Source: an uncultured Winogradskyella sp.
GTDB lineage: Bacteria > Bacteroidota > Bacteroidia > Flavobacteriales > Flavobacteriaceae
DNA length: 64,000 bases
Direction of reading: 5' to 3'
NCBI RefSeq assembly: GCF_947495255.1
Contig: NZ_CANLYI010000004.1
Location: 186,001-250,000 of the forward strand
Shown here: one piece after another, positions 24,136-56,476 of the stretch
Layout: the number at the start of each line of letters is the position of its first letter
Numbering within the stretch: the stretch's first letter is position 1
Notes under the pieces: model-generated
Told to the model about the DNA's origin: nothing
Databases searched by the model: none
The model's input: the letters and a program-made list of their open reading frames with translations, nothing else
Position numbers and translations under genes: made by a program

Positions 24136-24209
24136 GGTCCCATAGCTCAGTTGGTTAGAGCACCTGACTCATAATCAGGTGGTCCTTGGTTCGAGCCCAA
24201 GTGGGACCA
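24136..24209 (+). tRNA. tRNA with CAT anticodon (tRNA-Met or lysidine tRNA-Ile2)
   Basis: A complete 74-base cloverleaf. The acceptor stem is GGTCCCA (24136-24142) paired with TGGGACC (24202-24208), with discriminator A. The anticodon stem is CCTGA/TCAGG around the loop CTCATAA (anticodon CAT at 24170-24172), and the T loop is TTCGAGC. CCA is not encoded. The anticodon fits elongator Met, or Ile2 if C34 is changed to lysidine; the sequence alone does not decide. The 3' end is the integration target of the island that follows. Confidence 0.95.
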
Positions 24210-24314
24210 CTTTAATAAAGACAAGCCTTTCGAGAAATCGAGAGGTTTTCTTTTTTTATACCAGTACAACATATGTACAACAATTGGCCTTTCTTTTGTT
24301 TTTATTTATTCTTA
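24199..24314 (+). repeat. attL-like copy of a 116-bp direct repeat (tRNA 3' end plus terminator)
   Basis: This copy starts in the tRNA T stem (AAGTGGGACCACT) and runs through the terminator to CATTTATTCTTA-like sequence. It recurs in the same orientation at 56361-56476, with only a handful of mismatches and the same length. The repeat brackets the 32-kb island, as expected of integration at a tRNA 3' end. Inside it GTACAACATATGTACAAC forms a short palindrome. Confidence 0.9.
24226..24257 (+). terminator. intrinsic terminator of the tRNA
   Basis: Stem CCTTTCGA/TCGAGAGG with a GAAA tetraloop (24226-24245, one T-G pair) is followed by TTTTCTTTTTTT. It lies inside the direct repeat, and so is duplicated at 56387-56419. 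Confidence 0.85.
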
Positions 24315-24340
24315 ACTCTAAAATCACTTAAATAATCTTT

Positions 24341-24664
24341 ATACTGACGTTCTCCAATGGAGCTAATATTGCTGGTTCAACATTAGTGCTTTATCCCGAT
24401 TTTTTATATGGATCTATTTTGTTTAGGCCTATGCTTCCTTTTAAGAAAATGCCAGCATTTCAAACGACTAAAAAGGTTCCTGTTTTTATTAGTTCAGGAA
24501 ATTTGGATGGCATGGTTAGTACGTCAGAAATTAAAAATTATACAAATTTATTAGAAGAGAATCAATTTAATATAGAGCATCATCAATTAAATACAGGACA
24601 TAATTTAACGGATGAAGATGTGGTACTGGCTGTAAAATGGGTGCATAATAATTTCAAATTATAA
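24341..24664 (+). pseudogene. 5'-truncated alpha/beta hydrolase (carboxylesterase/phospholipase type)
   Basis: The frame can be followed from about 24341 as TFSNGANIAGSTLVLYPD, which is the nucleophile elbow (normally GFSNGA) of a carboxylesterase-type hydrolase. It continues through PVFISSGNLDGMVS, with the acidic residue, and HHQLNTGHNL, with the catalytic histidine. The N-terminal half is missing: homologous sequence begins some 27 bases after the att repeat ends. A GTG at 24386 could start a short peptide, but the fold would be broken. This is a gene cut by the recombination at the tRNA. Confidence 0.75.
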
Positions 24665-24666
24665 CT

Positions 24667-25020
24667 ATGGATTTTAAAATCACAAGGATATATTCAGATA
24701 CCAGAGGCGAAACACACTTTGAGGATCTGAATATTCCTTTAAATAATAAAGGAGATATAGGGTTTCTATCTGAAGCTCAAAAAGCAAATTCCATTATTTT
24801 TAGAAAAGTAACAGAAACCTATGATTATAATTTTCATGTATCACCTTCCCGTCAATATGTTATTTTGTTGGATGGTATAATAGAAGTTGAAACGTCTTTA
24901 GGAGATAAGCGCATTTTTCAATCTGGAGAAATCTTATTGCTTGATGACACAACAGGCAAAGGACACAAAACTAAGAATATACAAACTCAAGTTAGATCGT
25001 CATTATTTATTGAATTATAA
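24667..25020 (+). CDS. cupin-domain protein
   Basis: A 117-residue cytoplasmic protein with a single cupin fold. RGETHFEDLNIPL near the start is followed by the cupin strands SPSRQYVILLDGIIEVETSLGDKRIFQSGEILLLDDTTGKGHKTK. The histidine near the end (GKGHKTK) and one in FHVSPSRQ are possible metal ligands. The substrate is unknown. It starts two bases after the stop of the truncated hydrolase, so the two were once probably cotranscribed. Whether it is still expressed is doubtful because its upstream partner is cut. Confidence 0.7.
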   Translation: MDFKITRIYSDTRGETHFEDLNIPLNNKGDIGFLSEAQKANSIIFRKVTETYDYNFHVSPSRQYVILLDGIIEVETSLGDKRIFQSGEILLLDDTTGKGHKTKNIQTQVRSSLFIEL

Positions 25021-25146
25021 AAAAAATAAAAGCAGATAACTAAGTAAAATTGGTTTAAACGAAGAACGAAGCGAAAATTGGAGAAATGTTAAATGATTAA
25101 CAGAATAGATGATTAAGAAGGAACAAATAATAAATTATTAAAGGAT

Positions 25147-25707
25147 ATGAGAACAGGACGATTAGAAGCATTTAGTGATGGAGTATTTGCTATCATAATT
25201 ACAATAATGGTACTTGAGCTTAAAGTACCTGAAGGCGACACTTTAGAGGCTCTAAAACCTCTACTGCCAACCTTTATAACATATGTATTAAGTTTTATTT
25301 ATTTAGGGATCTATTGGAATAACCATCATCATTTATTGCATGCTTCTAGTTTGGTTAATGGTAAAGTCCTTTAGGCCAATTTACATCTTCTCTTTAGGTT
25401 GTCATTATTTCCTTTTGCGACTGGCTATATGGGAGAAAACCATTTTCAAAAGCTACGAACAGCATTGTATGGATTCGTACTTTTTATGGCTAGTATAGCT
25501 TGGTTTATTTTGATTAAAGTGTTACAGTCAACACATACTAGAGAGACTATATTACATAAATCATATAAAAATAAATCAAAGGATATTCTTTCTATATTAG
25601 CTTATGGTTTTGCAAGCATAATCAGCTTTTGGGAACCTGTTTATTCAGTTATAATATACGTTATGATTGCAATTATTTGGTTTGTACCAAATAAGGATTT
25701 AGAATAA
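25147..25707 (+). pseudogene. TMEM175/DUF1211 family potassium channel, interrupted by an in-frame amber stop
   Basis: The first part (25147-25374) has the family signature MRTGRLEAFSDGVFAIIITI and the second-helix region ITYVLSFIYLGIYWNNHHH. It ends at TAG (25372-25374) where the family has tryptophan (VLWANLHLLFWLS). Reading through in the same frame gives ANLHLLFRLSLFPFATGYMG and three further helices to 25707. A single TGG to TAG change explains the break, with no frameshift. TMEM175 proteins are potassium channels. This copy is probably inactive unless the stop is read through. Confidence 0.8.
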
Positions 25708-25769: not shown

Positions 25770-25854
25770 TGCTAATAATCAGGTGCTTATTGATTCGAAA
25801 CTAAGTGAGACCACTAATAAAATCAAGTCTTACAGAGATGTAGGGCTTTTTTTA
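25770..25854 (+). repeat. degenerate 3' half of the CAT tRNA with its own terminator-like hairpin
   Basis: Bases 25770-25815 align without gaps to 24166-24211 of the tRNA (anticodon arm to 3' end), matching at 35 of 46 positions; TAATCAGGTG, TTCGA, AAGTG and GACCACT are kept. A hairpin follows in the same place as the tRNA terminator: AGTCTTACA/TGTAGGGCT (25826-25847), loop GAGA, then six T. There is no 5' half. It looks like an old attachment-site scar from an earlier insertion, or a donor tRNA end brought by the island. The surrounding 338 bases (25708-26046) contain no gene. Confidence 0.7.
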
Positions 25855-25998
25855 TCCCAATATTTTATAATTATTATTTAGCTTAAATGTGAAAAATGTT
25901 TAAACCTATAGAAATTATAAATTTTCTCTATTTTTTTTGTCTAAAGGGGTAGATTATTTGAATAAACTTAAGGTTTTATAAGATTTAGACAGACATTT

Positions 25999-26046: not shown

Positions 26047-27342
26047 TTATAAATTAAACAAACTTGGTAACCATAGTGTTAATTGCGGAAAATAGGTTAC
26101 TAAAAACAAAGCCACTATCATTGCTAAAAACAATGGTAATAAAGGTTTCATAACTTTTTGTATGGTGGTTTGAGCGACACCAACTCCTACAAATAAGACG
26201 GAGCCAACAGGTGGAGTACATAGCCCAATACATAAATTAAGAACCATTATTATACCGAACTGAACAGGATCCATTCCTAAATCAACTACAACGGGTAAAA
26301 AAATTGGTGTAAATATTAATACAGCAGGAGTCATATCCATAAAAATTCCTACAAATAGTAATATTAAATTGATAATTAATAAAATGATGATTTTATTATC
26401 ACTTATTGCCAATAAAGATGAACTAATATTCTGAGGTATATTCTCATAAGACATCACCCAAGACATACTCATAGAAGCACCAATTAATAACATTACAACC
26501 GCGGTTGTAACTGACGAATCTAATAGAATTTCTGGTAATGACTTCATGTTTATTTCCTTATAAACGAACCCTAAAACTAAAGTATAAAATACAGCAATTG
26601 CAGAAGCTTCTGTAGCCGTAAAAACACCTGTAACAATACCTCCAATTACAATTACCAAAAGGAATAAGCTTGGTAGAGCATCAATAAATGTTTTAAAGAC
26701 TTCTTTAAACGAACTTCTTTTACCTAGTTTATATCTCTTTTTTTTTGCCCAAAAGGAGGCAACTATCATTAAAAATAACCCTGTTAAAATTCCAGGAATA
26801 TAGCCTGCTAAAAATAAGGCAGCAATAGAAACTCCACCACTGGCTAATGAATACACAATTAACACATTACTAGGTGGAATTATAAGACCGGTTGTTGCAG
26901 AAGTAATGTTTACGGCTGCTCCAAATTCTTTAGAATATCCCTCTTTTTCCATTTCTGGTCCAAGAATACTTCCCATCGCAGAAGCAGAAGCCATTGCCGA
27001 ACCTGCAATTGCGCCCATCAGCATAGCACCGATAACATTAATTAACGCTAAGCCACCAGGCAATGATCCAACTAAGGTTTTTGCAAATGCAATGAGCCTG
27101 TGGGCAATTCCACCTTTGTTCATTAATTGGCCTGAGAGTATGAAAAAGGGTATAGCTAATAGGGCAAAACTATCTAAACCAGTACCCATCCGTTGAGAAA
27201 CTGTTGTAAATGCAGGTAAAGCTGGAATACTTACTAACATCGTTAACACTGATGAAATGGAAATACTCCAAGCCACAGGTGTCCCTATTGAAAGCAGACA
27301 CAGAAAACTAAATATTAAAACTAAAATAGGTATATAATCCAT
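26047..27342 (-). CDS. dctM: TRAP transporter large permease DctM
   Basis: A 431-residue inner-membrane protein with about 12 hydrophobic helices, the large subunit that uses the sodium gradient to move acids into the cell. Family traits include GTPVAWSISISS near the start, the LLAIPFFILSGQLMN helix, ATTGLIIPPSNVLIVYS and the late PPVGSVLFVGVGVA. It is the last gene of the operon from uxuB, one base after dctQ. In this setting the cargo is probably a uronate such as glucuronate or an unsaturated oligouronate, which is inference from the neighbours. Confidence 0.93.
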   Translation of the reverse strand: MDYIPILVLIFSFLCLLSIGTPVAWSISISSVLTMLVSIPALPAFTTVSQRMGTGLDSFALLAIPFFILSGQLMNKGGIAHRLIAFAKTLVGSLPGGLALINVIGAMLMGAIAGSAMASASAMGSILGPEMEKEGYSKEFGAAVNITSATTGLIIPPSNVLIVYSLASGGVSIAALFLAGYIPGILTGLFLMIVASFWAKKKRYKLGKRSSFKEVFKTFIDALPSLFLLVIVIGGIVTGVFTATEASAIAVFYTLVLGFVYKEINMKSLPEILLDSSVTTAVVMLLIGASMSMSWVMSYENIPQNISSSLLAISDNKIIILLIINLILLFVGIFMDMTPAVLIFTPIFLPVVVDLGMDPVQFGIIMVLNLCIGLCTPPVGSVLFVGVGVAQTTIQKVMKPLLPLFLAMIVALFLVTYFPQLTLWLPSLFNL

Positions 27343-27343
27343 A

Positions 27344-27805
27344 CTACTTAATATTTATAATGTCTGAAATTTTATAATAAATGATTAATAACCCACTTAA
27401 AGGAATAGCTAGATAAACCATAGCTAAGGGTATTTGTAATGCTGGAGATTGTTGGTCTAATACATATGTAATATAAACTAATCTACTACCTCCCATTACC
27501 ATAGCAAACAATGCAAATACAACAATAATTACATACACTACTAATTTTAATTTTTTTTGAGTTTTTACAGTTGCTTTCTGTGGTAAAACATCAATAGCGA
27601 CATGCATATTTTTCCCAGATACATAAGCAGCACCCAATATGCCTAACCATATCATTAAATAACGCGCCAACTCATCTGTAAAAGAACTTGGTGTACCCAC
27701 TATAAACCTTGTAAATACTTGCCATAAGACATTTACAACCATTATGCCCATTATTAAAATAAGCAACTTGCTTAAAATGCTATCTATATTTTTTCTGACT
27801 GCCAT
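27344..27805 (-). CDS. dctQ: TRAP transporter small permease DctQ
   Basis: A 153-residue protein with four helices, the small membrane subunit of the TRAP system. The family phrase DELARYLMIWLGILGAAY is present at about residues 43-60. Its start overlaps the last base of the dctP stop and dctM follows one base after its own stop, so the three subunits are translated together. It serves the same uronate uptake system. Confidence 0.92.
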   Translation of the reverse strand: MAVRKNIDSILSKLLILIMGIMVVNVLWQVFTRFIVGTPSSFTDELARYLMIWLGILGAAYVSGKNMHVAIDVLPQKATVKTQKKLKLVVYVIIVVFALFAMVMGGSRLVYITYVLDQQSPALQIPLAMVYLAIPLSGLLIIYYKISDIINIK

Positions 27806-28785
27806 TAGTTGTTATTTTTAATGCGACTTATTAGATCGAGCATATCTTTATCTTCTTTATAGGAATCATAAACAGTGTTAACATTATTAGAAAAGGCCTC
27901 TTTATCCGGCCTTATAATTGTTACTCCAGCTTTTTTAACCTCCTCTATTGCTTCTTTTTCTGCTTCAGCCCAAAGTTTACGTTGATAGGTAACTGAATTA
28001 TTAACTGCTTCTTGTAACCATTTTTTTTCTTGATCTGATAGTTTTTTCCAAATGTGAGTTCCTATAATTAATACATCAGGTAAAACAGTATGTTCATCTA
28101 ATGAATAATATTTACAAACTTCGTAATGTCTAGATAAGTAAAAACTCGGTGGATTATTCTCTGCACCATCAACAACACCTTGTTGTAACGAAGTGTATAA
28201 CTCTCCCCAAGAAATAGGTGTAGCCGAACCGCCAAGACTTTTTACCATATCCATAGCAGTAACGCTTTCCATCACTCTAATCTTTAGACCTTTTAAATCT
28301 TTAGGTGTGTATATGGGTTTGTCTTTGGTATAAAAACTTCTACTACCAGCATCATAATAGCATAGTCCTTTTACCCAATACTGAGTTCCTTCATCTAACA
28401 ATTCTTGTCCAGTTGGACCATCTAAAATACTGAAAGCGTGTTGTTTATCTTTAAATAAATATGGCAAACCAAACACTTTCATTCTTGGTGCAAAGTTTTC
28501 CATAACGCCTACAGAAACTTTTGTCATATCTAGGCTTCCTATTTGAAGTAACTCTATACATTCACGTTCAGTTCCTAATTGTTGACTGGGATAAATTTCT
28601 AAAGCCATTTTACCTCCAGAAATTTCTATTAAATCCTCACCCATTTTAACCATAGCCTTATGAACTGAATGATTAACATCTAATCCATGTGCCAATTTAA
28701 TAGTTTGAGTTTCATCTAAATCCTCGCAACTAAAAACTAAACTAAACACAGCTAAAGCGAATACTATTTTCTGCAATATTTTCAT
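27805..28785 (-). CDS. dctP: TRAP transporter substrate-binding protein DctP, lipoprotein
   Basis: A 326-residue binding protein. The signal MKILQKIVFALAVFSLVFSC ends in a lipobox (Cys20), so it is tethered, whereas most DctP proteins are soluble in the periplasm. Family regions are LAHGLDVNHSVHKAM, GKMALEIYPSQQLGTE, the KDLKGLKIRVMES strand with the arginine that binds the carboxylate, and QQGVVDGAENNP. This arginine-based site fits sugar acids. It is followed at once by the two permease genes and preceded by uxaC, so it probably delivers glucuronate or its unsaturated derivative. Confidence 0.92.
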   Translation of the reverse strand: MKILQKIVFALAVFSLVFSCEDLDETQTIKLAHGLDVNHSVHKAMVKMGEDLIEISGGKMALEIYPSQQLGTERECIELLQIGSLDMTKVSVGVMENFAPRMKVFGLPYLFKDKQHAFSILDGPTGQELLDEGTQYWVKGLCYYDAGSRSFYTKDKPIYTPKDLKGLKIRVMESVTAMDMVKSLGGSATPISWGELYTSLQQGVVDGAENNPPSFYLSRHYEVCKYYSLDEHTVLPDVLIIGTHIWKKLSDQEKKWLQEAVNNSVTYQRKLWAEAEKEAIEEVKKAGVTIIRPDKEAFSNNVNTVYDSYKEDKDMLDLISRIKNNN

Positions 28786-28805: not shown

Positions 28806-30215
28806 TTATAAAAAGTTGAAATATGCTTTTGCGTTATTATAGCTAATGTCTGAAACCATTTTGCCTATACATTCCATTTCCTCTTTTGGTAATTCGCCAC
28901 GTTTAACCTCATCACCCAATAGGTTGCATAAAATGCGTCTAAAATAGTCGTGTCTTGGAAAGGATAAGAAACTGCGTGAATCGGTTAACATTCCTATAAA
29001 ACAACTAATCAACCCCATGTTTGACAAAGCGTTTAATTGTTTGGTCATACCATCTTTTTGATCTAAAAACCACCAGCCAGAACCAAATTGGACTTTACCC
29101 TTAACACTGCCATCATTAAAATTACCAATCATAGTGGCCATTACTTCGTTATCTGCAGGATTAAGATTATATATAATAGTTTTACATAGTTTATCCTTAC
29201 TATCTAGGGTGTTTAAAAATGCTGAAAGCTTTTGTGCTTGCGGATAATCACCAATAGAATCCCAACCTGTATCCGGACCTAAAATTGAGTGCATGCGTTT
29301 ATTATTATTACGCAATGCACCAATATGAAATTGCTGAACCCAACCAAACTCGTAATAGGTTTCACATAAAAACAATAGGATGGCTGTTTCAAATTTTAAA
29401 ACTTCAGTGTGTAATAATATTTCACCTTTTCTTTTCTTCTTGAAAATAGTATCTATTTCATTTTCTGTAAAGGTTTCAAAAACCATTTGGCTTATACCAT
29501 GATCACAAAGTCTACAACCGTTAGTATGAAAGTATTCAATTCTACTTCTTAAAGCATCTTTTAAATCGCGATACGTTTCAATGATTGATCCTGTTACTTT
29601 GGCTAGGCTATCTACATAAGCATTGTAACCTTCATTGGCAATTAAGAAGGCCTTGTCTGGCCGAAAAGCGGTATTTACTTTAACTTCAAAATTACTTTTC
29701 GCTAATGCTTTGTGATGTTCTAAGCTATCGATAGGATCTTCCGTTGTACAAACTAATTCAACATTAACTTTACGAAGCAAGTTTCTACAGCTATAAGCGC
29801 TGCTACTTAATTGTTCTGAAGTTGTTTCGTATATTTTTTCAGCTGATTTTTCGTTTAATAAATCAGTAATATCAAAGTATCGAGATAATTCTAAATGTGT
29901 CCAATGATACAATGGATTGCGCATAGTGTAAGGCACTGTTTTTGCCCATTCCATAAACTTTTGTTTATCTGACGCATCACCTGTAATAAACTTTTCCTTT
30001 ACACCTAAAGTACGCATGGCACGCCATTTATAGTGATCACCATTGATCCAAACTTTAGTTAAATTATTATATATTTTATCTTCTAAAATCTCTTGAGGTG
30101 GTAAATGATTATGATAATCTATTATAGGTTGATTTTTAGAGTAGTTATGATATAACTCTTCAGCATATTGATTTTCTAAAAGAAAATTACCGTGTATAAA
30201 ATTTTTATTTATCAT
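28806..30215 (-). CDS. uxaC: glucuronate isomerase
   Basis: A 469-residue cytoplasmic enzyme of standard length that converts D-glucuronate to D-fructuronate (and galacturonate to tagaturonate). The amidohydrolase-like barrel begins with IIDYHNHLPPQEI, with the metal histidines. ELVCTTEDPIDSLEHHKAL, FHIGALRNNN and GSGWWFLDQKDGM are all typical of UxaC. Its start overlaps the stop of the DUF4861 gene by four bases. It gives the first step of the saturated-glucuronate branch that continues with UxuB and UxuA from the same operon. Confidence 0.97.
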   Translation of the reverse strand: MINKNFIHGNFLLENQYAEELYHNYSKNQPIIDYHNHLPPQEILEDKIYNNLTKVWINGDHYKWRAMRTLGVKEKFITGDASDKQKFMEWAKTVPYTMRNPLYHWTHLELSRYFDITDLLNEKSAEKIYETTSEQLSSSAYSCRNLLRKVNVELVCTTEDPIDSLEHHKALAKSNFEVKVNTAFRPDKAFLIANEGYNAYVDSLAKVTGSIIETYRDLKDALRSRIEYFHTNGCRLCDHGISQMVFETFTENEIDTIFKKKRKGEILLHTEVLKFETAILLFLCETYYEFGWVQQFHIGALRNNNKRMHSILGPDTGWDSIGDYPQAQKLSAFLNTLDSKDKLCKTIIYNLNPADNEVMATMIGNFNDGSVKGKVQFGSGWWFLDQKDGMTKQLNALSNMGLISCFIGMLTDSRSFLSFPRHDYFRRILCNLLGDEVKRGELPKEEMECIGKMVSDISYNNAKAYFNFL

Positions 30216-31381
30216 TTTTGAAATTCAATGATTAAAGGTGTTTTTAATTTTTTTGAAAAGTTACTTAAGTAAGCATCCCATTGTTGTTGAGTATTAAATT
30301 GCCCATTTTTTTTCCAACCAAATCCCGCATAATAAACGACTGTATTATTAGCCACGGTTAACTGAGCATATAAATTACTTTCATCATTCTTGGAAGTGAT
30401 ATATTTATCAAAGTCTTTGATGGTATTTATTGCAACTAAACCTAAACCTAATTCAGAATCATCAAAGGGCTCCCAATAACTCATCCAACCTTCATTTAGG
30501 TTGGTTTTACTGATGCCATCTTGTTTATGTAATGTTATTCCTGCAGAAATTGAATCGGTTCCAGAAAGGTGAATTTCAAAACGCGATAGGTTTTGACCAT
30601 AATCTAAAGAAATGTGTTTTGTTTCCTTTATTTCTTTTCCATTGGCAGACCAAGTTGCATATTCTAAGATAAAACTAGTTCGTATTGGTCCTGAGGTTAT
30701 TGTTTTTGATGAGATGAAATTTTTAGAAAAAGCATATGTACTGTCTGTTTTTACGGCAATACCACCTATGCCGCGACTTGCTCCAACATGAAAATTATCT
30801 AAACCTTCACCTGTGTCTTTATGATATGATCCAATGCCAGACGTATGTTTTTTATACCATTTGTTAATAATTGGGTATTCTACTCGTTTTAACCAAGCGT
30901 CTATTCCGCTAGACAGGGTACCGCCTTTAACGCTATCTTCAATCATTTTTTGAGCTGTTGGCCCATAGGTTCTAAAAGCAACTTTATTGTTTTCCCAAGC
31001 GTAATCATCCGTGCGTTCTGGTACAAAACGCGAATAACAACGTATTAAAGTACTGTCTTGTATTTTATTAGTATTTACACCAATAATTTTATAGGTCTTT
31101 GTACGATTTGCAGAAATTTTCGGTTGAAAAAGTAAAACCTCATTAATTCCATCTAGATTATAATCAACCGTTTGAGAAATAATTTCTTCTTTGGTTTCAA
31201 TATCAATAACCTTGTAAAAATCTGATTTTATTGTTGCTAAAATTTGTTCGCTGATTTCAACAGTTTCAAAACTTTTATCGATATCTAGGGTGTTTTGCAC
31301 AGTAAAGAGAATTTCTTTTGATTCTTTTTTATCACATGAAAAACAAATAATAGTTAATAAAATGTATAAGATTTTTTTCAT
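30212..31381 (-). CDS. DUF4861 family lipoprotein
   Basis: A 389-residue exported protein with lipobox signal MKKILYILLTIICFSC (Cys16). The mature domain has the DUF4861 features: an opening LFTVQNTLDIDKSFETVEIS, VDYNLDGINEVLLFQP, the FRTYGPTAQKM segment and a GEGLDNFHVGASRG motif. A beta-sandwich with possible sugar binding is expected. The function of the family is not established. It sits between cytoplasmic uronate enzymes although it is exported, abutting kduD without a gap and overlapping uxaC. It may be a periplasmic enzyme or binding protein for uronate oligosaccharides. Confidence 0.75.
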   Translation of the reverse strand: MKKILYILLTIICFSCDKKESKEILFTVQNTLDIDKSFETVEISEQILATIKSDFYKVIDIETKEEIISQTVDYNLDGINEVLLFQPKISANRTKTYKIIGVNTNKIQDSTLIRCYSRFVPERTDDYAWENNKVAFRTYGPTAQKMIEDSVKGGTLSSGIDAWLKRVEYPIINKWYKKHTSGIGSYHKDTGEGLDNFHVGASRGIGGIAVKTDSTYAFSKNFISSKTITSGPIRTSFILEYATWSANGKEIKETKHISLDYGQNLSRFEIHLSGTDSISAGITLHKQDGISKTNLNEGWMSYWEPFDDSELGLGLVAINTIKDFDKYITSKNDESNLYAQLTVANNTVVYYAGFGWKKNGQFNTQQQWDAYLSNFSKKLKTPLIIEFQK

Positions 31382-32176
31382 TTATAGTTCATTTGAAGGT
31401 TTTCCTATTGTTGCTAAAATTCCACCATCAACATATAAAATATGACCATTAACAAAGTCACTTGCTTTAGAACTTAAGAATATGGCTGCTCCTGCCAAAT
31501 CCTCTGGGTTTCCCCATTTGGCAGCAGGTGTTCGATTTACAATAAAATCATTAAATGGATGTCCATCTACTCGTATTGGTGCTGTTTGAGATGTGGCAAA
31601 ATAGCCTGGCCCAATTCCATTAACTTGTATATTAAATCTAGCCCATTCTGTGGCCATATTTTTAGTCAACATTACTAAACCACCTTTTGCTGCAGCATAA
31701 GCACCAACCGTATTTCTTCCTAATTGACTCATCATAGAACAAATATTTATGATTTTACCTTCTTGGCGTTCCATCATACCTTTTACAACATGTTTGGACA
31801 CTATAAATGGACTTACCAAGTCAATATTTAAAACGTGTTTAAAGTCTTCAACTTCCATTTCTGCTAAAGGTGTGCGTTTTATAATCCCTGCATTATTAAC
31901 TAGGATATCAATAAAACCGACTTCGTTTACAATTTTTGCTAAGTTTTTAATAACATCAGCTTCATCTGCAACATTAAACTTATAACCGATAGCCTTAACT
32001 CCTTCTTTTTTATAGTGAGCAACAGCAGTGTCAATTTTTTCTTGGGAAGAATTTCCATTTACAATGATGGTTGCTCCTGCTTTTCCTAAACCCATGGCCA
32101 TGGCCATACCTAAACCATGTGTACTTCCGGTTATAAGGGCGATTTTTCCTTTTATATTAAATAGTTCTTGCGACAT
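31382..32176 (-). CDS. kduD: 2-deoxy-D-gluconate 3-dehydrogenase / DKII reductase
   Basis: A 264-residue short-chain dehydrogenase. It reduces 3-deoxy-D-glycero-2,5-hexodiulosonate, the product of KduI, to 2-keto-3-deoxygluconate. The NAD-binding TGSTHGLG (residues 16-23), the NNAG motif (VNNAGIIKRTPL) and the catalytic Ser147, Tyr160 and Lys164 (YAAAK) are all present, with the C-terminal GHILYVDGGILA. It is one base from kduI, and the pair acts in sequence. KduD proteins of 250-265 residues are usual, and the neighbours make the assignment firm. Confidence 0.93.
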   Translation of the reverse strand: MSQELFNIKGKIALITGSTHGLGMAMAMGLGKAGATIIVNGNSSQEKIDTAVAHYKKEGVKAIGYKFNVADEADVIKNLAKIVNEVGFIDILVNNAGIIKRTPLAEMEVEDFKHVLNIDLVSPFIVSKHVVKGMMERQEGKIINICSMMSQLGRNTVGAYAAAKGGLVMLTKNMATEWARFNIQVNGIGPGYFATSQTAPIRVDGHPFNDFIVNRTPAAKWGNPEDLAGAAIFLSSKASDFVNGHILYVDGGILATIGKPSNEL

Positions 32177-32177
32177 A

Positions 32178-33017: not shown

Positions 33018-33045
33018 ATATATTATTTCTTAAATTAGTATAAAT

Positions 33046-34227: not shown

Positions 34228-34239
34228 ATTTTATATATT

Positions 34240-43456: not shown

Positions 43457-43481
43457 TATATATAATACATAGTTGCTAAAG

Positions 43482-43511: not shown

Positions 43512-43532
43512 AGTTTACTATTACTTATACAA

Positions 43533-47919: not shown

Positions 47920-50900
47920 ATGAGAACTAAAAAGAGTAAAATATTTATTACTGTACAAGTAGTTTTATTGCTGTTTTGTGTTAATTACGTCAGTGCACAA
48001 AAAACGGTTACAGGAACAGTAATGTCTAAAGATTTAAAGCCTATACCAGGTGTTAATATTCTTTTGGAAGATACAAATACTGGTGCAACTACTGATTTTG
48101 ATGGTAACTATAGTATAACAATTAATAAAAGTAAAGCGTTTTTGGTTTTTAGTTATTTGGGATATGTTACTCAACGTGTGGCTATTGGTAGCAAAAGAGA
48201 ACTTGACGTGATCTTGTTGGAAGATACTGAAGCACTAGATGAAGTGGTGTTGATAGGTTATGGGTCTAGTCTAAAGAAAGATCTAACTAGCTCTGTTTCA
48301 GTTATAGATGTGAAGGATTTATCAACTGGACAAACACCTCGTTTTGAGCAAATGTTAACGGGTAGAGCTGCAGGTGTAAATGTTTCAAGTGTAAATACTG
48401 AGCCCGGCGCCGCTTTAAAAATAAGAATTAGGGGAAATAATTCATTAACTGGTGATAATAGCCCATTATTAGTTGTAGATGGTGTTTTAGGAGGAGACTT
48501 TGAAGCTCTCAATCCTAATGACATTGAATCTATGCAAATTCTAAAAGATGCCTCCGCTACTTCAATTTATGGTTCACAAGGTGCTAACGGTGTAATTATA
48601 GTAACTACAAAACAAGGGAAAATAGGGAAATTATCTATTGGTTTTTCATCTACTGGAGGAGTGCAGAAAGTGAGAAAAAAATTGGATCTTCTGACAGCAG
48701 AAGAGCATGTTGCTATATTGCAAGACGATCCTAATTTTGATTTTCCGGGAGATATTGATGGCTTAACAAATCCAATTTTATCAGGAGAAGGAACAGATTG
48801 GCAGGACGAAATATTTCAAACAGCTTCTTATCAAAATTATCACATTGATGTTAAGGGAGGTGTGGGCAATTTAAGGGCTTACACATCCATAGATTATCTG
48901 AATCAAGAAGGCGTTATTAAAGGGTCTGACTACAAAAAATTAAATGGAAGGGCCAACATTAGTTATAGAGCTTCTAATAAATTAACTGTTAAAAATAATC
49001 TTGCTTTTTATAATACAGAATCTAATCAGGTAAGAACTAATGAAGGTTATGGTTCTCTTGGTGGTCCTGTTACTATAAATGCAGCTTCTTTTTCGCCTAT
49101 AATCCCTGTTTTTGCGGAAGATGGAACCTATAATGGACCTTTAAACACAGCTTCAATAAGAGATAACCCTGTAGCGCTTGTTGATAATTTAGATGATTTA
49201 TATACCCAAAATTATTTTAGAAATGTTTTATCTACAAAATGGAAAATGTCTAAAAATTTAACATACGATTTTTCATATACTTTTTCAAACAGAACAATTG
49301 ATAATAAACGTTATACAAGTAAAATATTACGAAGAGCACTTAATTTAGGTGAAGCAAGATTAGATAATAGGCAAATTAACACATGGCAATTAAGAAACTT
49401 ATTGACGTATAAGAAAAATATTGATAATCATAATTTTAGTGTTCTCTTAGGTCATGAAATGTTAGAAAACAAATCTTTTAGAACGATAATTGAAGCTTCT
49501 GGTTTTCCAACAGATGCTTTAGGATATAATGCCATACAACTGGCAGACCAAATTTTAGAGTATTCAACTACAGATTCTGTCAACAGTTTACTTTCTTTTT
49601 TTACTAGATTTACTTACGGATATAAGGATAAATACCTTTTATCTTTTTCAGCCAGAGCAGATGGGTCAAGTAAGTTTGCAGCAAACAATAAATGGGGATA
49701 TTTTTCAGCAGGTTCATTGGCTTGGGTAGCTAGTGAAGAACCTTTTCTAAAAGAGAACTCTACCATTAATTTCTTAAAGTTTAGAACAAGTTATGGCGAA
49801 ACAGGTAGTCAGGCTATTAATCCATACCAATCATTAGCAGCATATAGTTTAGGGCAATTATATTCAGATGGTTCTGGTAGTCTGAATACTAATGGAGCAA
49901 TCATAGATAGAGTAGCAAACCCTAATCTAAAATGGGAAACTACAGTTCAATTTGATTTTGGTTTAGATTTAGAATTGTTTGATGGTAAAATAGGAATTGT
50001 CGCAGATTATTATAATAAACAAACAACAGACCTTTTATTTAATAGAAGGTTATTGCCACATACAGGTATTGCGGATCAAGTTCAAAATATTGGAAGCATG
50101 GAAAATATTGGATATGAATTTGCTTTAGACGCAGTAGTATTTGATAAAGATTTTAAATGGAATACCTCTGGAAATATAAGTATTGTAAAAAATAAAGTTT
50201 TAGACCTTGGTGGGGAAGATGATTTGTTTTTAGTACCACCTAGTGGATCAAGAGGGTCGGGATTTAGTACAACAGGTATTTTAAGAGTAGGAGAGCCTAT
50301 TGGTAATTTCTTTGGATATGTAGCTGATGGTATTTTTAGATCACAAGAAGATTTAGATGCTATTGATCAACCAGGCGGTGTTATAGGTGATGTTAGATAT
50401 AAAGATATTAGTGGTCCAGATGGAGTCCCAGATGGTATAATTGACGACAACGACCGAAAAATTATTGGTAATGCATTACCTGATTTTACATTTGGTTTTA
50501 GTAATGATTTTAGATATAAAAATTTTGAGTTGAATGTTCTAATGCAAGGTTCTATAGGCTTTGATGTTGTAAGATTCGATAAAGGAAGGATTTTAAATAA
50601 AGAAAGATTTGATGGTTGGAGAGAAGATAATACCGATACCAATATTCCACGAAATGGTTTTTTAGGTAATGTTGCTAATTCAAATTATGTTGAAGATGCT
50701 TCTTTTGTTAAATTTAAAAACATATCCATAGGATATAATTTTTCTACATCAACAATTGAAAAACTAGGCCTTAGTTCTTTAAAAATATATGTGTCTGCAA
50801 TAGACGCAATTGTATTAACCAAATACACTGGTTATGACCCAGAAATAAATTCTTATTCAAGTGGAGATAATTTCCAACAGAATGTTTCTATCGGCTACGA

Positions 50901-50958
50901 TTCTGGTGGTTATCCAGGTATCAGTCAGTATGTAATGGGTTTAAATTTATCCTTTTAA
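47920..50958 (+). CDS. susC: SusC-type TonB-linked outer-membrane transporter
   Basis: A 1012-residue importer for oligosaccharides. The signal ends at VSAQ; a carboxypeptidase-regulatory domain (VTGTVMSKDLKPIPGVNILL) and a plug follow. The SusC hallmarks are LTSSVSVIDVKDL, MLTGRAAGVNV, GNNSLTGDNSPLLVVDGV and DIESMQILKDASATSIYGSQ, and the barrel ends VMGLNLSF. It pairs with the SusD gene 27 bases downstream. The 26 bases before its start consist of an 11-base tandem repeat (TAACTAAACAA), beginning at the stop of the preceding gene. It imports the oligosaccharides made by the lyases. Confidence 0.97.
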   Translation: MRTKKSKIFITVQVVLLLFCVNYVSAQKTVTGTVMSKDLKPIPGVNILLEDTNTGATTDFDGNYSITINKSKAFLVFSYLGYVTQRVAIGSKRELDVILLEDTEALDEVVLIGYGSSLKKDLTSSVSVIDVKDLSTGQTPRFEQMLTGRAAGVNVSSVNTEPGAALKIRIRGNNSLTGDNSPLLVVDGVLGGDFEALNPNDIESMQILKDASATSIYGSQGANGVIIVTTKQGKIGKLSIGFSSTGGVQKVRKKLDLLTAEEHVAILQDDPNFDFPGDIDGLTNPILSGEGTDWQDEIFQTASYQNYHIDVKGGVGNLRAYTSIDYLNQEGVIKGSDYKKLNGRANISYRASNKLTVKNNLAFYNTESNQVRTNEGYGSLGGPVTINAASFSPIIPVFAEDGTYNGPLNTASIRDNPVALVDNLDDLYTQNYFRNVLSTKWKMSKNLTYDFSYTFSNRTIDNKRYTSKILRRALNLGEARLDNRQINTWQLRNLLTYKKNIDNHNFSVLLGHEMLENKSFRTIIEASGFPTDALGYNAIQLADQILEYSTTDSVNSLLSFFTRFTYGYKDKYLLSFSARADGSSKFAANNKWGYFSAGSLAWVASEEPFLKENSTINFLKFRTSYGETGSQAINPYQSLAAYSLGQLYSDGSGSLNTNGAIIDRVANPNLKWETTVQFDFGLDLELFDGKIGIVADYYNKQTTDLLFNRRLLPHTGIADQVQNIGSMENIGYEFALDAVVFDKDFKWNTSGNISIVKNKVLDLGGEDDLFLVPPSGSRGSGFSTTGILRVGEPIGNFFGYVADGIFRSQEDLDAIDQPGGVIGDVRYKDISGPDGVPDGIIDDNDRKIIGNALPDFTFGFSNDFRYKNFELNVLMQGSIGFDVVRFDKGRILNKERFDGWREDNTDTNIPRNGFLGNVANSNYVEDASFVKFKNISIGYNFSTSTIEKLGLSSLKIYVSAIDAIVLTKYTGYDPEINSYSSGDNFQQNVSIGYDSGGYPGISQYVMGLNLSF

Positions 50959-50985
50959 TAAAAATAATACTTAAAATAAACACAC

Positions 50986-52494
50986 ATGAGAAATTTTGAT
51001 TATAAGACAATTTTTAAGGTATTAGTTGTTTTTACCTTTATAACAATGTTTATGGGATGTGAAGATTTTTTAGAAGAAAACCCTGAAAGTAATTTAGGGC
51101 CAGAAAATTTTCCTCAATCGGCAGAAGATGCAGATTTAATAGTTGGTGGTATGACAAGACCATTATATCGTTCTGTTTTTGCGAGTAGAGCTTTTGTTTT
51201 TGTTGCAGGTGTTTCTGATGATGAAATGACTGTTTATAACACAAGTGGTGATAGATATGATATGGATCAATACACTTATACTACAGATAATATTCATATC
51301 CGACAAGTTTACGAAACTTGTTATCAGGTGATTAATCAAGCTAATTCACTTGTTGCGTACTTGCCAAGTGATCAGGAATGGGCAAAACCTTATATTGCTA
51401 CTGGCAGGTTCTATAGATCTTGGATGTATTCGTATTTGGTTCGTTTGTATGGACCTTCAATATTGCGTGACACGCCAACAGAAGAGATAGATTTTGATGA
51501 AGAAATCACAAAAGCATCAGAAGAAGAGATTTATAATTTTATAATTAATGATTTAGAGCAAGCTCAAAATGATTTGCCGATAAACTGGACGGGTAATGAT
51601 TCTAGAGATGATGGTAGGCCTACTCAAGGTGCTGCAAAAATGTTATTAGCAAAAATGTATATATCATCTGCAGGTTACCCTGTTAATAATTCTGAAAATT
51701 GGGTAAAAGGGTTAGATAAAGCACAAGAGGTTATAGATTCTGGTGTATATAGCTTAATGCCAGATTTTGAAGACATGTTTTTAATTGCAAATCAAAACAG
51801 GGAAGAAAGTATTTTTTCCATTCAAGTACCAATAACAGAGGGCTTATTGAGCATGTCTTTTAGACCTCGACAAAGAACTAGTGGTATTATTGATAATCAA
51901 GGTTGGTATTTGTTCTGTGGATCGGAAGATCTTTTGGATACTTTTTCAGATAATGATGATAGAAAAGAAGGAACTTTTTTAATAAATCTTGAGCAAGAAC
52001 CAAGCCCTCCTGCAAATTACTTAGATTTTCGTTACAATAGTGCGTATGGACAAGTTCCTGGTGTTCAAAAATATCAAGATTTTGATAGAGATAACATTTC
52101 TGATTATGCATTTAGGTCAGCAATGGGTATTAAAATTTTTAGATACGCAGAGGCTTTTCTAATAAAAGCAGAAGCAGAAAATGAAGTTAATGGACCTACA
52201 GCAGTAGCAATTGAAGCTATAAATGCATTAAGAAGCCGAGCCAATGCAGATCAAATTTCTATTGGTATTTCTCAAGATGAACTTCGCGAAATTATACATG
52301 AAGAATGGACATTTGAGTTTGCGTATGAATTTAAAAGAAGATTCAATATGTTAAGATGGGGTATTATTGATGATGTTTTAAGTTCAGATACTAGAGCAAT
52401 TAATGGTTATGCTCCTTATAAAAAATACTTTCCAATTCCACAATCAGCTTTTGATTCTGGACTTGATCCAAGTTTACAAAACCCAGGATATTAA
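50986..52494 (+). CDS. susD: SusD/RagB family glycan-binding lipoprotein
   Basis: A 502-residue surface lipoprotein with lipobox FMGC (Cys25). TPR-type helices bind the glycan lid over SusC; the family phrases are GRFYRSWMYSYLVRLYG, QGAAKMLLAKMYISSAGYP and the C-terminal EAFLIKAEAENEV and ELREIIHEEWTFEFAYEFKR. It starts 27 bases after susC and the pair works as one pedal-bin complex. Ligand specificity cannot be read from sequence, but the neighbours point to uronate oligosaccharides. Confidence 0.97.
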   Translation: MRNFDYKTIFKVLVVFTFITMFMGCEDFLEENPESNLGPENFPQSAEDADLIVGGMTRPLYRSVFASRAFVFVAGVSDDEMTVYNTSGDRYDMDQYTYTTDNIHIRQVYETCYQVINQANSLVAYLPSDQEWAKPYIATGRFYRSWMYSYLVRLYGPSILRDTPTEEIDFDEEITKASEEEIYNFIINDLEQAQNDLPINWTGNDSRDDGRPTQGAAKMLLAKMYISSAGYPVNNSENWVKGLDKAQEVIDSGVYSLMPDFEDMFLIANQNREESIFSIQVPITEGLLSMSFRPRQRTSGIIDNQGWYLFCGSEDLLDTFSDNDDRKEGTFLINLEQEPSPPANYLDFRYNSAYGQVPGVQKYQDFDRDNISDYAFRSAMGIKIFRYAEAFLIKAEAENEVNGPTAVAIEAINALRSRANADQISIGISQDELREIIHEEWTFEFAYEFKRRFNMLRWGIIDDVLSSDTRAINGYAPYKKYFPIPQSAFDSGLDPSLQNPGY

Positions 52495-52621: not shown

Positions 52622-53800
52622 ATGTCTAAAAATTATATTATAACAATACTTTGTTTTGCGGGTTTATTATGTGGTGTAAGCTGCAAGAAAGTTGACGAAG
52701 AACAGTTTGATAAACAGACGAAAACAGATTTACTGGACACAAGGTATAATAGATTTTTGCAGTACCCTTTAGATTCTTTAGCGTTTCCCAGAAGTGCATC
52801 ACTAAATTCACAAAAAATAAAAAAAGTGTCTTCCAGTGATTGGACAAGTGGATTTTTTGCAGGTAATTTTTGGCAAATGTATCAGCTAACAGGTGATGAA
52901 AATTTTAAAAATAAAGCAAAAAAATGGACAGCTTTTATTGAAAAGGAAAAGTTTAATGATCATACGCACGATATGGGTTTTAAAGTTTATTGCAGTTTTG
53001 GTAAGGGCTTAGAAGTTGAAGAAAATGAAGATTATAGACATGTTATAGTAAAAAGCGCTCAAACGCTTTCTACCCGTTTTAACAAGAACATGGAAGTCAT
53101 AAGGTCTTGGGATTTTAATAAAGATAAATGGCAGTTTCCAGTTATAATAGATAATATGATGAATCTAGAACTGCTGTTTGAAGCCACAAAAATCTCAGGT
53201 GATAGTTCTTTTCACAAATTAGCCGTAAAACATGCTAATACAACTTTAAAGAATCATTTTAGATCTGATAATAGCACTTGGCACGTCATAGATTATGACA
53301 CTATAAATTATCAACCAAGATTAAAAATTACACACCAAGGATATAACGACGATTCATCTTGGGCTAGAGGTCAGGCTTGGGCTATTTATGGTTTTACTAT
53401 GGCGTATCGTTATACTAAGGATTCTAATTATTTAGAACAAGCAATAGCTACAGCTAGTTTTTATCTTAATCATAAAAACTTACCAAAGGATGGAATTCCC
53501 TATTGGGATTTTAATGATCCAACAATTCCAAATGCTCCAAGAGATGTATCAGCTGGTGCAATTGTAGCTTCTGCATTTGTAGAATTATATTCTTATACAA
53601 AAAATGAGATTTACTTAGACTATAGCAAAAAACTGGTTAGTAGTTTAACATCTGTTGATTATATACTAAAAGACTCAATTAAAGCGCCCTTTATTCTTGA
53701 TCATAGTACTGGTAATTGGCCTAAAAAAGATGAGGTAGATGAGCCAATCGTTTATGGTGATTATTACTTTTTAGAAACCCTTATTAGACTTAAAAATTAA
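52622..53800 (+). CDS. GH88 unsaturated glucuronyl hydrolase
   Basis: A 392-residue enzyme with a lipoprotein signal (MSKNYIITILCFAGLLCGVSC, Cys21). GH88 enzymes cleave the unsaturated uronate from the non-reducing end of lyase products by hydrating the double bond. The two catalytic aspartates are Asp117 in THDMGFK and Asp177 in VIIDNMMNLELL. GYNDDSSWARGQAWAIYGFT is the family signature, and the alpha6 barrel ends YGDYYFLETLIRL. Its product rearranges to the substrate of KduI, which ties it to the minus-strand arm. It lies seven bases before the GH2 gene. Confidence 0.92.
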   Translation: MSKNYIITILCFAGLLCGVSCKKVDEEQFDKQTKTDLLDTRYNRFLQYPLDSLAFPRSASLNSQKIKKVSSSDWTSGFFAGNFWQMYQLTGDENFKNKAKKWTAFIEKEKFNDHTHDMGFKVYCSFGKGLEVEENEDYRHVIVKSAQTLSTRFNKNMEVIRSWDFNKDKWQFPVIIDNMMNLELLFEATKISGDSSFHKLAVKHANTTLKNHFRSDNSTWHVIDYDTINYQPRLKITHQGYNDDSSWARGQAWAIYGFTMAYRYTKDSNYLEQAIATASFYLNHKNLPKDGIPYWDFNDPTIPNAPRDVSAGAIVASAFVELYSYTKNEIYLDYSKKLVSSLTSVDYILKDSIKAPFILDHSTGNWPKKDEVDEPIVYGDYYFLETLIRLKN

Positions 53801-53807
53801 ACCTACA

Positions 53808-56222
53808 ATGAACAAAATTTCAGTATTAATTCTATCACTATTTTTAATATTTTCTTGCGAAACGGAAAAAACCGAAGGTAATCAATCGCGCAGTAAAACC
53901 AACTTAAATAATCATTGGCAATATTCAGAAAGCGATATAAAGGATATTAGTCAGATAAAAGATAAGGGTGTATGGCAAAATATAAATTTACCACATACTT
54001 GGAATGCCGTAGACGCAACTGATTTAGATCCAGGTTATAGAAGAAGCACTAGTTGGTATAAAAAAGACCTAGAAATACCATCAAAAGTATCTAACCAAAT
54101 TTATCAACTCTATTTTGAAGGCGTAAACATTACAAGTGAAGTATACGTTAATGGGAAGAAAATGGGCAGCCATTTAGGTGGTTATTTAGGTTTTAATATC
54201 GATATTACTGAAGCTGTTACAACAGGTTCTAATGAAATTATGGTGAGAGTTGATAATAGTTATAATCCTGAAATTATTCCTTCTCAAAAAAATGATTTCT
54301 TCATTTTTGGTGGTATTACAAGAGATGTTTGGTTACAAACATTGCCAGTTCAACATATAACTGATTTAAAAATAACGACACCCAACGTTTCTAGTGATAG
54401 TGCAGAATTAAATACAATTGTTTCTATTGCAAATGCTATTGATAATAGCTCATGCAAAGTAAGAGCAAGTTTAATTGATAACGAAGGGCTTAGGGTCAGA
54501 ACAGATATTTTCGATATAGTCAATGAGACTTCTAAAATTCAATTTAAAGACATAAAAAACCCAAAACTTTGGGATACAGATAGCCCTAATTTATACACTT
54601 TAAAAGTTGAACTCATCGAAAATGAAATCATAAAAGATGAGTTTTCTGAAAATTTTGGCTTTAGGTGGTTTGAATTCAAAGAGCATGGTGCCTTTTATCT
54701 CAATGGGAAAAGATTATTGTTAAGAGGAACGCATAGGCATGAAGAGCACGCAGGTGTTGGTGCTGCGATGAGTAATGAACAACATCGCAATGATATGGAA
54801 CTCATAAAAGAAATGGGAGCCAATTTTGTGCGTCTAGCTCATTATCCTCAAGACCCAGAAGTATATAAGGCATGCAATGAGCTAGGAATATTAGTTTGGG
54901 ATGAGCTACCATGGTCTAGAGGAGGTTTGGGTAATGGTCGTTGGAAACAAAACACCAAAACAATGCTAAAAGAAATTATAGAACAAAATTATAATCATCC
55001 TAGTATTATTATTTGGTCGTTAGGAAATGAGATTTATTGGTTGCCAGATTTTGAGAATGGAGATGATGTAGAAAAAATAAATTCTTATTTAAGTGAGCTA
55101 AATGATTATGCTCATCATTTAGATCCATCTCGAAAAACTGCAATTAGAAAATACTATGAAGGAGCAAATATTGTCGATGTTTTTTCTCCATCAATTTGGT
55201 CGGGTTGGTACTCGGGTAGTTATAAGAGTTATCAAAAAGCAATTGATCAATATAAAGCTGAGTATAAACATTTTTTACATGCAGAATATGGTGGGTCCAG
55301 TCATTTAGGTCGTCATACTGAAAATCCTATAACTGGTGAAGGAAAAATTAATGCAGATGGTTGGGAGGAGGCTATTGTACAAACAGATGTTGCAAATATT
55401 GCCCAAATTGGAGATTGGAGCGAAAATTATATTGTAGATCTATTTGATTGGCATTTAAGAATTTCTGAAAACGATTCTACATTCATCGGTAATGCACAAT
55501 GGGCTTTTAAAGATTTTGGAACTCCACTTAGACCCAATAATGCTATTCCTTATATAAATCAAAAAGGTATTGTAGATAGAGCTAATAATCCTAAAGATGC
55601 TTTTTACGTATTTAAGAGTTATTGGAATAAAACAGATCCATTTACCTACATAGAATCGCATACTTGGACAGAAAGACAAGGACCAAAAGACGAGTCTAGA
55701 GATATTAGTGTATATAGTAATTGCCCAGAAGTTGAACTTTTTTTAAATGGAAAAAGTTTAGGGACTAAACAACGAAATACTAAAGTATTTCCAGCAATGG
55801 GTTTAAATTGGGCATTAAATTTTAATGAGGGTGAAAATACATTAGTTGCAATTGGTAAAACTAAAACTGGTAAAACAGTTAAAGATAGTCTTGTGGTTAG
55901 TTATAGATACACTAAAAATCTAAAACCAAAAGAATTAAAGTTAGAATATAAACGACTTGAAAATGGTAATTATTTAATTACTGCTACTGCTATTGATACA
56001 AATAACTTACGCTGTTTAGATTACGAAGACAAAGTTTACTTTCAATGTTTATCTGGAGGAGAATTGCTACGGTATCAGGGAACTCCATATGGATCAGATG
56101 TTATTGATATGGCAAATGGAAAAGCAAGTATTGAGTTAATCCCAAATAAAAACACATCAACTATAAATGTAACAGTTTTAAATCAAGACTTTAAAGGGAC
56201 TTATTTAGAAATAAAATTGTAA
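53808..56222 (+). CDS. GH2 glycoside hydrolase (beta-glucuronidase or beta-galactosidase type)
   Basis: An 804-residue lipoprotein enzyme (signal MNKISVLILSLFLIFSC). The three N-terminal beta domains start LNNHWQYSES and INLPHTWNAVDA; the barrel has RGTHRHEEHAGVG, the acid/base Glu408 in IIWSLGNEIYW and the nucleophile Glu493 in FLHAEYGGSS. A C-terminal sandwich follows from about 620 (VELFLNGKSLG). The family covers beta-glucuronidase, beta-galactosidase and others. In this locus a beta-glucuronidase giving free glucuronate to UxaC is the best guess. It ends 138 bases before the second att repeat, the last gene of the island. Confidence 0.9.
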   Translation: MNKISVLILSLFLIFSCETEKTEGNQSRSKTNLNNHWQYSESDIKDISQIKDKGVWQNINLPHTWNAVDATDLDPGYRRSTSWYKKDLEIPSKVSNQIYQLYFEGVNITSEVYVNGKKMGSHLGGYLGFNIDITEAVTTGSNEIMVRVDNSYNPEIIPSQKNDFFIFGGITRDVWLQTLPVQHITDLKITTPNVSSDSAELNTIVSIANAIDNSSCKVRASLIDNEGLRVRTDIFDIVNETSKIQFKDIKNPKLWDTDSPNLYTLKVELIENEIIKDEFSENFGFRWFEFKEHGAFYLNGKRLLLRGTHRHEEHAGVGAAMSNEQHRNDMELIKEMGANFVRLAHYPQDPEVYKACNELGILVWDELPWSRGGLGNGRWKQNTKTMLKEIIEQNYNHPSIIIWSLGNEIYWLPDFENGDDVEKINSYLSELNDYAHHLDPSRKTAIRKYYEGANIVDVFSPSIWSGWYSGSYKSYQKAIDQYKAEYKHFLHAEYGGSSHLGRHTENPITGEGKINADGWEEAIVQTDVANIAQIGDWSENYIVDLFDWHLRISENDSTFIGNAQWAFKDFGTPLRPNNAIPYINQKGIVDRANNPKDAFYVFKSYWNKTDPFTYIESHTWTERQGPKDESRDISVYSNCPEVELFLNGKSLGTKQRNTKVFPAMGLNWALNFNEGENTLVAIGKTKTGKTVKDSLVVSYRYTKNLKPKELKLEYKRLENGNYLITATAIDTNNLRCLDYEDKVYFQCLSGGELLRYQGTPYGSDVIDMANGKASIELIPNKNTSTINVTVLNQDFKGTYLEIKL

Positions 56223-56360
56223 AAGTTTATTTCGTCAATGATGCCCTAACCATTATAAAGAGATAATATTAATTAACACTTTTTTTGTGTTTTGAACTTA
56301 AGTCTATATTATGCAATGTGAGTCAATAATACGCTTTATTAGTCAAATAGTTTAAAAAGA

Positions 56361-56476
56361 AGTGGGACCACTGCAATAAAGACAAGCCTTTCGAGAAATC
56401 GAGAGGTTTTCTTTTTTTTGCACCAGTACAACATCTGTACAACAATTGGTGTTTCTTTTGTTTTCATTTATTCTTA
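56361..56476 (+). repeat. second copy of the 116-bp tRNA-derived direct repeat
   Basis: The sequence AAGTGGGACCACT then AATAAAGACAAGCC and the terminator, up to ATTTATTCTTA, repeats 24199-24314 with few changes (TT to GC after the core, TAT to GCA after the T tract). Upstream there is no tRNA sequence, so only the acceptor end and terminator were copied. It marks the right end of the PUL island and the left end of the mobilizable element. The 138 bases between the GH2 stop and this copy contain no gene. Confidence 0.9.
56387..56419 (+). terminator. duplicated tRNA terminator in the right repeat
   Basis: Stem CCTTTCGA/TCGAGAGG with GAAA loop (56387-56406), then TTTTCTTTTTTTT. It is identical in its stem to the terminator of the tRNA and isolates the mobile element from transcription of the PUL. 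Confidence 0.8.

Follow-up and report, generated by a model that had tools for sequence, protein, structure and literature searches.

The window analysed here is a 64,000-nucleotide stretch from an uncultured Winogradskyella sp. (RefSeq assembly GCF_947495255.1, contig NZ_CANLYI010000004.1, positions 186,001 to 250,000; G000:C4:186001-250000 in our coding). Coordinates above 64000 continue its numbering along the same contig. Downstream of a tRNA-Met gene the window carries a polysaccharide utilisation locus (PUL) on an island of about 30 kb (25815-56371). The island has no integrase that we could find, is bounded by 12-nt copies of the tRNA 3′ end, and appears from its sequence to be wedged between the left ends of two mobilizable elements, a relic (A) and the neighbouring element B. 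On balance we favour the view that the island moves, if at all, inside a 53.7-kb composite (24168-77875) predicted to be excised by the integrase of element B.

tRNA genes were called with ARAGORN, protein families were assigned with Pfam, and integrases were sought with an integrase hidden Markov model (HMM). Relatives are coded G followed by a number, and "same genus" denotes the grouping used in the analysis. As a caution on assembly, the repeats are about 120 bp long, and all of them lie inside one contig. The features are as follows.

24136-24210, plus strand: tRNA-Met(CAT) gene, the predicted integration target; positions 33-75 of the tRNA (24168-24210) form the left 43-nt core
24211-24322, plus strand: copy 1 of the direct repeat, putative left end of relic A, with terminator (hairpin -17.5 kcal/mol) and arm pair; 91% identical to copy 2
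24264-24281, plus strand: arm pair GTACAACATATGTACAAC, 96 nt from the core start, the same offset as in the lone G063 element
24341-25707, plus strand: body of relic A, with a 5′-truncated hydrolase (Abhydrolase_2), an open reading frame (ORF) lacking a Pfam match, and a stop-interrupted TMEM175-like gene
25772-25814, plus strand: decayed 43-nt tRNA copy (34/43), putative right core of A; its last 12 nt (25803-25814, one mismatch) are the putative left core of the PUL island
25815-25909, plus strand: left end of the island, with terminator (25815-25856, -13.2 kcal/mol) and degenerate arm motif (25896-25909, 11/14)
26047-28785, minus strand: TRAP transporter genes DctM, DctQ and DctP (Pfam)
28806-35067, minus strand: uronate catabolism genes UxaC, DUF4861 (BT3233 family), SDR/KduD-like, KduI, UxuA and D-mannonate oxidoreductase
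35376-39518, plus strand: hybrid two-component regulator (Pfam)
39693-47893, mixed strands: SASA esterase, PL14/alginate-lyase-like protein (minus strand), proteins with type IX secretion tails, and lyase/beta-helix proteins
47920-52494, plus strand: SusC-like/SusD-like pair
52622-56222, plus strand: GH88-type unsaturated glucuronyl hydrolase and GH2 enzyme
56241-56359, plus strand: right end of the island, with degenerate arm motif (56241-56254, 11/14); end sequence in common with G016
56360-56371, plus strand: 12-nt tRNA 3′ end (12/12), putative right core of the island, followed directly by element B
56372-56482, plus strand: copy 2 of the direct repeat, putative left end of element B, with terminator and arm pair (56426-56443); near-identical to the left end of the lone G063 element
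56487-64000, plus strand: the part of element B inside the window, with AlpA/HTH, DUF5906, toprim primase, NikA, MobA relaxase and HEPN genes

The two copies of the direct repeat, measured at 24199-24322 and 56360-56482, are 91% identical over about 123 nt and 97% identical in a 59-nt block. A preliminary description of this DNA had reported this repeat, which is real, with coordinates about one base off. Both copies hold the final 12 nt of the tRNA, a terminator hairpin (-22.3 kcal/mol in copy 2) and a paired motif, GTACAACATNTGTACAAC. Copy 1 is preceded by the intact tRNA-Met gene, and copy 2 by the last 12 tRNA nucleotides alone (positions 64-75). Among 68 same-genus genomes the paired motif was counted seven times, with three occurrences here and two each in G063 and G010, and the reversed motif, which served as the control for arm motifs, did not occur. 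Its third occurrence in this genome is at 77698, beside a tyrosine integrase gene (76472-77680), and we infer that it is an arm site of the integrase.

In G063, an element resembling B occupies the same tRNA on its own; both of its cores are full, and no PUL separates it from the tRNA. It is 95.3% identical to 56362-72247, 97.0% to 73890-75847 and 94.8% to 75837-77877; its first 14.9 kb are 96.5% identical to B, and about 1.6 kb of B (72248-73889) has no match in it. Since the left end of this lone element is near-identical to copy 2, copy 2 appears to start element B. Past the window, B continues to 77875 with Cas9-Cas1-Cas2, an array of clustered regularly interspaced short palindromic repeats (CRISPR), AbiE and the tyrosine integrase, 21.5 kb in all. 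It thus has an integrase and a relaxase of its own, and no mating-pore genes were seen, as in an integrative and mobilizable element (IME).

Copy 1, judged by its sequence, is a diverged relative of the same kind of element, with its body gone. The truncated hydrolase begins within about 20 nt of the point where similarity to copy 2 ends, and only the piece of the TMEM175-like gene before the stop matches TMEM175; the second piece, searched separately, does not. The decayed tRNA copy at 25772-25814, which the preliminary description overlooked, matches at 34 of 43 positions, and the best among 100 null sequences reached 27. Four modules of tRNA fragment and terminator lie in one orientation, at 24199, 25772, 56360 and 77833. 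The last of these begins with a perfect copy (43/43) of tRNA positions 33-75, at 77833-77875, which we call the right outer core; the 43-nt core itself starts at the anticodon loop. Copies 1 and 2 are thus both read as left ends of mobilizable elements, and not as the two ends of the PUL.

Several points of the preliminary description were borne out by these data. Tandem accretion anchored at the tRNA is seen in the four modules, and a mobilizable element with NikA and MobA does begin right after copy 2. The integrase and third repeat that it proposed to seek past 64 kb were both found there. Its island lacking an integrase and resembling a cis-mobilizable element (CIME) was also upheld: between copies 1 and 2 lie 28 ORFs of at least 80 aa, and neither integrase nor relaxase was matched by Pfam among the 22 scanned, nor an integrase by the HMM. 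The six ORFs outside the Pfam scan are 81-96 aa long and overlap larger ORFs.

The same description took copies 1 and 2 as attachment repeats on either side of the PUL; on this reading the integrase of the neighbouring element could excise the PUL alone. The arm pair of the B integrase is indeed present in both copies. Evidence on the site of strand exchange comes from G016, which carries a B-related element whose integrase is 49% identical to that of B. Its tRNA is of one type, and the right-hand copy differs at positions 51, 61 and 65, matching the type of other relatives. These three variable bases suggest that strands are exchanged 5′ of tRNA position 51. Copy 2 retains positions 64-75 and lacks positions 33-63, where exchange is indicated, so the B integrase should not cut it. 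As both copies are moreover left ends rather than a left and a right end, we regard excision of the PUL between them by the integrase as very improbable. Loss of the PUL as a unit by RecA-dependent recombination between copies 1 and 2 is possible, and would yield the arrangement seen in G063.

A functional-looking pair is formed instead by 24168-24210 and 77833-77875, which enclose both the PUL and element B; the interval between copies 1 and 2 is not supported as the moving unit. The outer cores agree at 43 of 43 positions and have cognate arms at offsets of 96 and 135 nt, identical to those in the lone G063 element. The right core of A has changed at 9 of 43 positions and the right outer core at none (Fisher p = 0.002). 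With the outer pair perfect and the inner marks decayed, the unit that moves is likely the composite, and not the stretch from copy 1 to copy 2. The simplest reading of an outer pair younger than the inner marks is that it was re-made by a recent integration of 24168-77875.

Alternatively, the layers may have come singly and never moved together, element B having displaced an older relative at the far end when recombination took place inside the elements, which would account for the young right core. The existence of B alone in G063 agrees with this, as does the location of the stack: the variable zone around it spans 116 kb and holds more sugar-use gene sets past the stack. Such a history requires an additional replacement step, and the arm pair of copy 1 is intact although the adjacent right core of A has decayed at 9 of 43 positions; we consider it possible but rather unlikely. 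Two points weigh against the favoured account. The age argument presumes equal decay of two short sequences, and none of the other genomes compared contained this PUL as a block.

The site was examined in relatives. In all 36 same-genus relatives compared, the segment that runs from the preceding gene to the end of the tRNA is matched in full, and pdxA was found in 67 of 68 genomes. The distance from tRNA to pdxA was obtained for 34 of 37 genomes (in G014, G009 and G027 the tRNA and pdxA are on separate contigs): it is about 1.1-1.3 kb in 16, 2-4 kb in four, 10-36 kb in six and more than 40 kb in eight. In the present genome it is 115.7 kb. The closest relatives at the pre-tRNA segment are G080 (89%, 736 bits) and G031 (88%, 700 bits), and both are free of the whole stack; empty sites in relatives are what the preliminary description proposed to look for. 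In G031, the tRNA is joined within 0.2 kb to DNA that starts here at 87869. In G080, where pdxA is 26.2 kb away, the tRNA and following DNA match 77833-77922 (88% over 90 nt), and a 40-kb stretch gave no match to 24211-77832 at E 1e-20. Together, these junctions indicate that the DNA to the right of the outer core is the old flank of the tRNA. Two more sugar-use gene sets lie there, at 77955-87603 (LacI, TonB receptor, glycerate kinase) and 88012-103685 (GH3, SusD); the second is in common with G031 and the first is not.

The cargo of the island includes a SusC/SusD pair, a regulator and carbohydrate-active enzymes, as in a PUL, and uronic acids are predicted in its substrate. No other SusC in 60 same-genus genomes exceeds 41% identity to that of the island. 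The 671-aa lyase-like protein was found at nine loci in genome contigs and has matches in 25 of 349 family genomes, this one included; all those outside this genome are partial. Near these loci are relatives of GH2 (68% at L094, 39% at L095), KduI (51% at L098), and the KduD-like and SASA proteins (L092). Such a few scattered genes at nine loci point to other PULs with common parts. In one Flavobacterium fluvii locus, for example, relatives of the 671-aa protein (59%) and GH2 (68%) are close neighbours. No conservation was seen in the intergenic DNA that separates the tRNA marks from the TRAP genes. A second UxaC gene in this genome (G000:C1:320678-322078) is 83% identical to the island copy.

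The uronate half of the PUL might be an old resident of the site in this clade rather than cargo. UxuA and mannonate oxidoreductase genes do occur between tRNA and pdxA in G005, G016, G063 and G033 (82-85%), and the operons of G005 and G063 match this one in gene order and strand. However, the zones of G031 and G080, the closest genomes at the pre-tRNA gene, contain neither of the two; the best relatives of UxuA (G030 88%, G004 86%, G080 86%) lie outside the zones of their genomes; and the UxaC copies within zones are of another type (about 52-55%). A vertically resident operon was therefore rejected as the whole story on the first two of these grounds, and we think residence of the uronate genes improbable. 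G033 also has, flanked on each side by a perfect 43-nt tRNA copy (L057:37-15998), an RND efflux set together with UxuA, KduI and two SDR genes, whose DNA is 79% identical to 31371-35054. As the integrase HMM found nothing in the 80 kb read, this is another island lacking an integrase at the same tRNA.

The bounds of the PUL island, 25803-25814 (11/12) and 56360-56371 (12/12), differ in length from the 43-nt core. Different integrases use different parts of tRNA genes. We scanned 45 genomes (1.63 Mb, some zones in part) for 12-nt tRNA 3′ ends outside any 43-nt copy, and found such stubs with terminators here (56360) and in G004, G016, G431, G019 and G022. A further stub in G032 is decayed and fell under the scan cut-off; the DNA after it directly follows the tRNA in G005 (88%, 767 bp). 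Stubs in G017, G434 and G436, which have a different left sequence, were set aside, as were near-matches lacking a terminator in G029, G431, G436 and this genome. Those three stubs lie about 100 nt after the tRNA and are preceded by a related GAGAAGT..GAGC-type sequence.

Right ends of the island type, with common sequence on the left side, were thus seen in five of the 45 genomes (this one, G004, G016, G431 and G032). Their summed anchored similarity was 228, against a mean of 55 and a maximum of 108 in 400 shuffles. When pairs were compared, no shuffle reached the observed score for this genome with G016, nor for G004 with G016, G431 or G032, nor for G016 with G431; two did for G431 with G032 and 54 for G016 with G032. 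The right ends of G019 and G022 are also alike (0/400), and pairs across the two groups gave 25 to 400.

A candidate arm motif of this second register, ATGCTCAAACCTTT, occurs without mismatch in the short-core G016 element, 69 nt inward of its left end and 117 nt inward of its right end, and likewise at the right ends of G032 and G431; the reversed control gave none. Three matches with one mismatch were found elsewhere (G002, G018, G071). The 11/14 matches in the PUL island lie 82 nt inside its left mark and 119 nt inside its right mark. Within 162 kb, 18 matches with at most three mismatches lie on the strand of these two, which are among the 18, and 19 lie on the opposite strand; the chance of both falling at the island ends is about 1e-5, with windows set after looking.

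In G019 and G022 a tyrosine integrase gene is found at a distance of about 165-178 nt from the stub, and the short-core element of G016 contains one as well. The three proteins are 35-40% identical to one another (G016 40% and 35% to the two) and 22-25% identical to the B integrase (22% for G016). G016 thus has an element that resembles the island at its right end, carries an exact arm motif at each end and encodes a short-core integrase itself. No integrase was picked up by the HMM in the PUL island, in the G004 and G032 zones, or in the 20 kb of G431 that were read. Among eight Phage_integrase places in this genome, none is close to the short-core enzyme of G016 (identity of at most about 33% across 43 aa, and 23% across the full length). 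A stub of the same type also bounds a SusC/SusD pair, a regulator and a glucoamylase-family protein in G431; the SusC there is 29% identical to the one described here, which indicates another PUL.

The short mark could also be explained as a 43-nt core cut to 12 nt by a deletion that also took the integrase end of a PUL element belonging to the long-core family of A and B. The lack of a detected integrase in the island fits such a deletion, and the relic at 24.3-25.7 kb shows that deletions occurred here. Random deletion would not, on the other hand, produce 12-15-nt stubs with terminators that recur across species, some with common left sequence, and the stubs of G019 and G022 have adjacent integrases. 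On the recurrence of the stubs and the right-end test, truncation was rejected as the main model, and we judge it unlikely.

A bolder reading, which we think less likely than not, is that the short-core ends mark a family of shuttles lacking integrases (the PUL island, G431 with another PUL, G004 and G032), which would have in common only their ends and the 12-nt tRNA core. They may be integrated in trans by a short-core integrase of the G016 type and later carried off by long-core mobilizable elements, so that one tRNA would act as a loading dock with two registers for sugar-degradation gene sets. A number of observations speak against both the short-core reading of the island and such a family. 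The right-end similarity is short and was noticed post hoc, the grouping of stubs having been picked after inspection, and for this genome it is weak with G004 (19/400) and G431 (42/400) and absent with G032 (400/400). Each arm copy of the PUL island differs from the motif at three of 14 positions, no motif of this type was found at either end of G004 or at the left end of G032, and an integrase of G431 could sit further left, beyond the 20 kb read.

Because the 12-nt mark of the PUL abuts the left end of B, the layers can be ordered by position as B, PUL island and A. The proposed history would begin with integration of B into the tRNA-Met gene via the 43-nt core. The PUL island would then have integrated at the last 12 nt of the tRNA, through an integrase of the other clade encoded outside the island. 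A would next have integrated via the 43-nt core and decayed to its left end, and the assembled composite was probably excised and re-integrated as one unit. Transfer of such an element needs a helper conjugative element.

Further observations concern element B and its relatives. The Cas9, Cas1 and Cas2 genes and array of B (65444-72247; L009:2445-9250) include 12 repeats, and the array of the 95% identical G063 element has 48, with zero spacers in common. This suggests an active, travelling type II system. The spacers of B had no other match among the sequences compared. After AbiEii, a 32-aa piece (75838-75933) is 81% identical to the B integrase and is likely a remnant of another integrase. 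In G010 (L130:3531 to L131), the arm pair GTACAACATATGTACAAC occurs twice, 32 kb apart, first adjoining another tRNA-Met gene, and probably marks a related element.

Tandems of CIMEs and IMEs and their composite excision are described in PMC5704250, as are the Bacteroidota IMEs NBU1 and NBU2, which have a tyrosine integrase, MobP and a tRNA 3′ end as target. The present locus is like those tandems in that the island, in which no integrase or relaxase was found, has candidate end marks and adjoins a mobilizable element, the two being arrayed at a tRNA 3′ end. It differs in the PUL cargo of the island, in its degenerate arms and in its 12-nt core, which belongs to another integrase clade than the two long-core ends around it. 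Element B resembles NBU1 and NBU2 in its tyrosine integrase, relaxase and tRNA 3′ end target, but it carries Cas9-Cas1-Cas2, a CRISPR array and AbiE, and its target is tRNA-Met. As in other accretion hot spots anchored at a tRNA, successive 3′ end copies lie in the same orientation and relatives have empty sites; a difference is that one tRNA gene here serves two integrase clades through cores of two registers, 43 nt and 12-15 nt. The arrangement is a form of CIME-IME accretion, and no matching report was recognised in a literature search limited to open-licence PubMed Central papers.

A direct repeat at a tRNA need not bound the interval that it flanks; here both copies are the left ends of neighbours. 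PULs vary between close relatives, and their movement is often inferred from gene trees. At this locus the end marks of the PUL island, the order of the layers, relatives free of the stack, the lone neighbour element, and an integrase-bearing element with related ends are visible together. With end marks, layers and relatives all in view, the route taken by the PUL can be tested by simple polymerase chain reaction.

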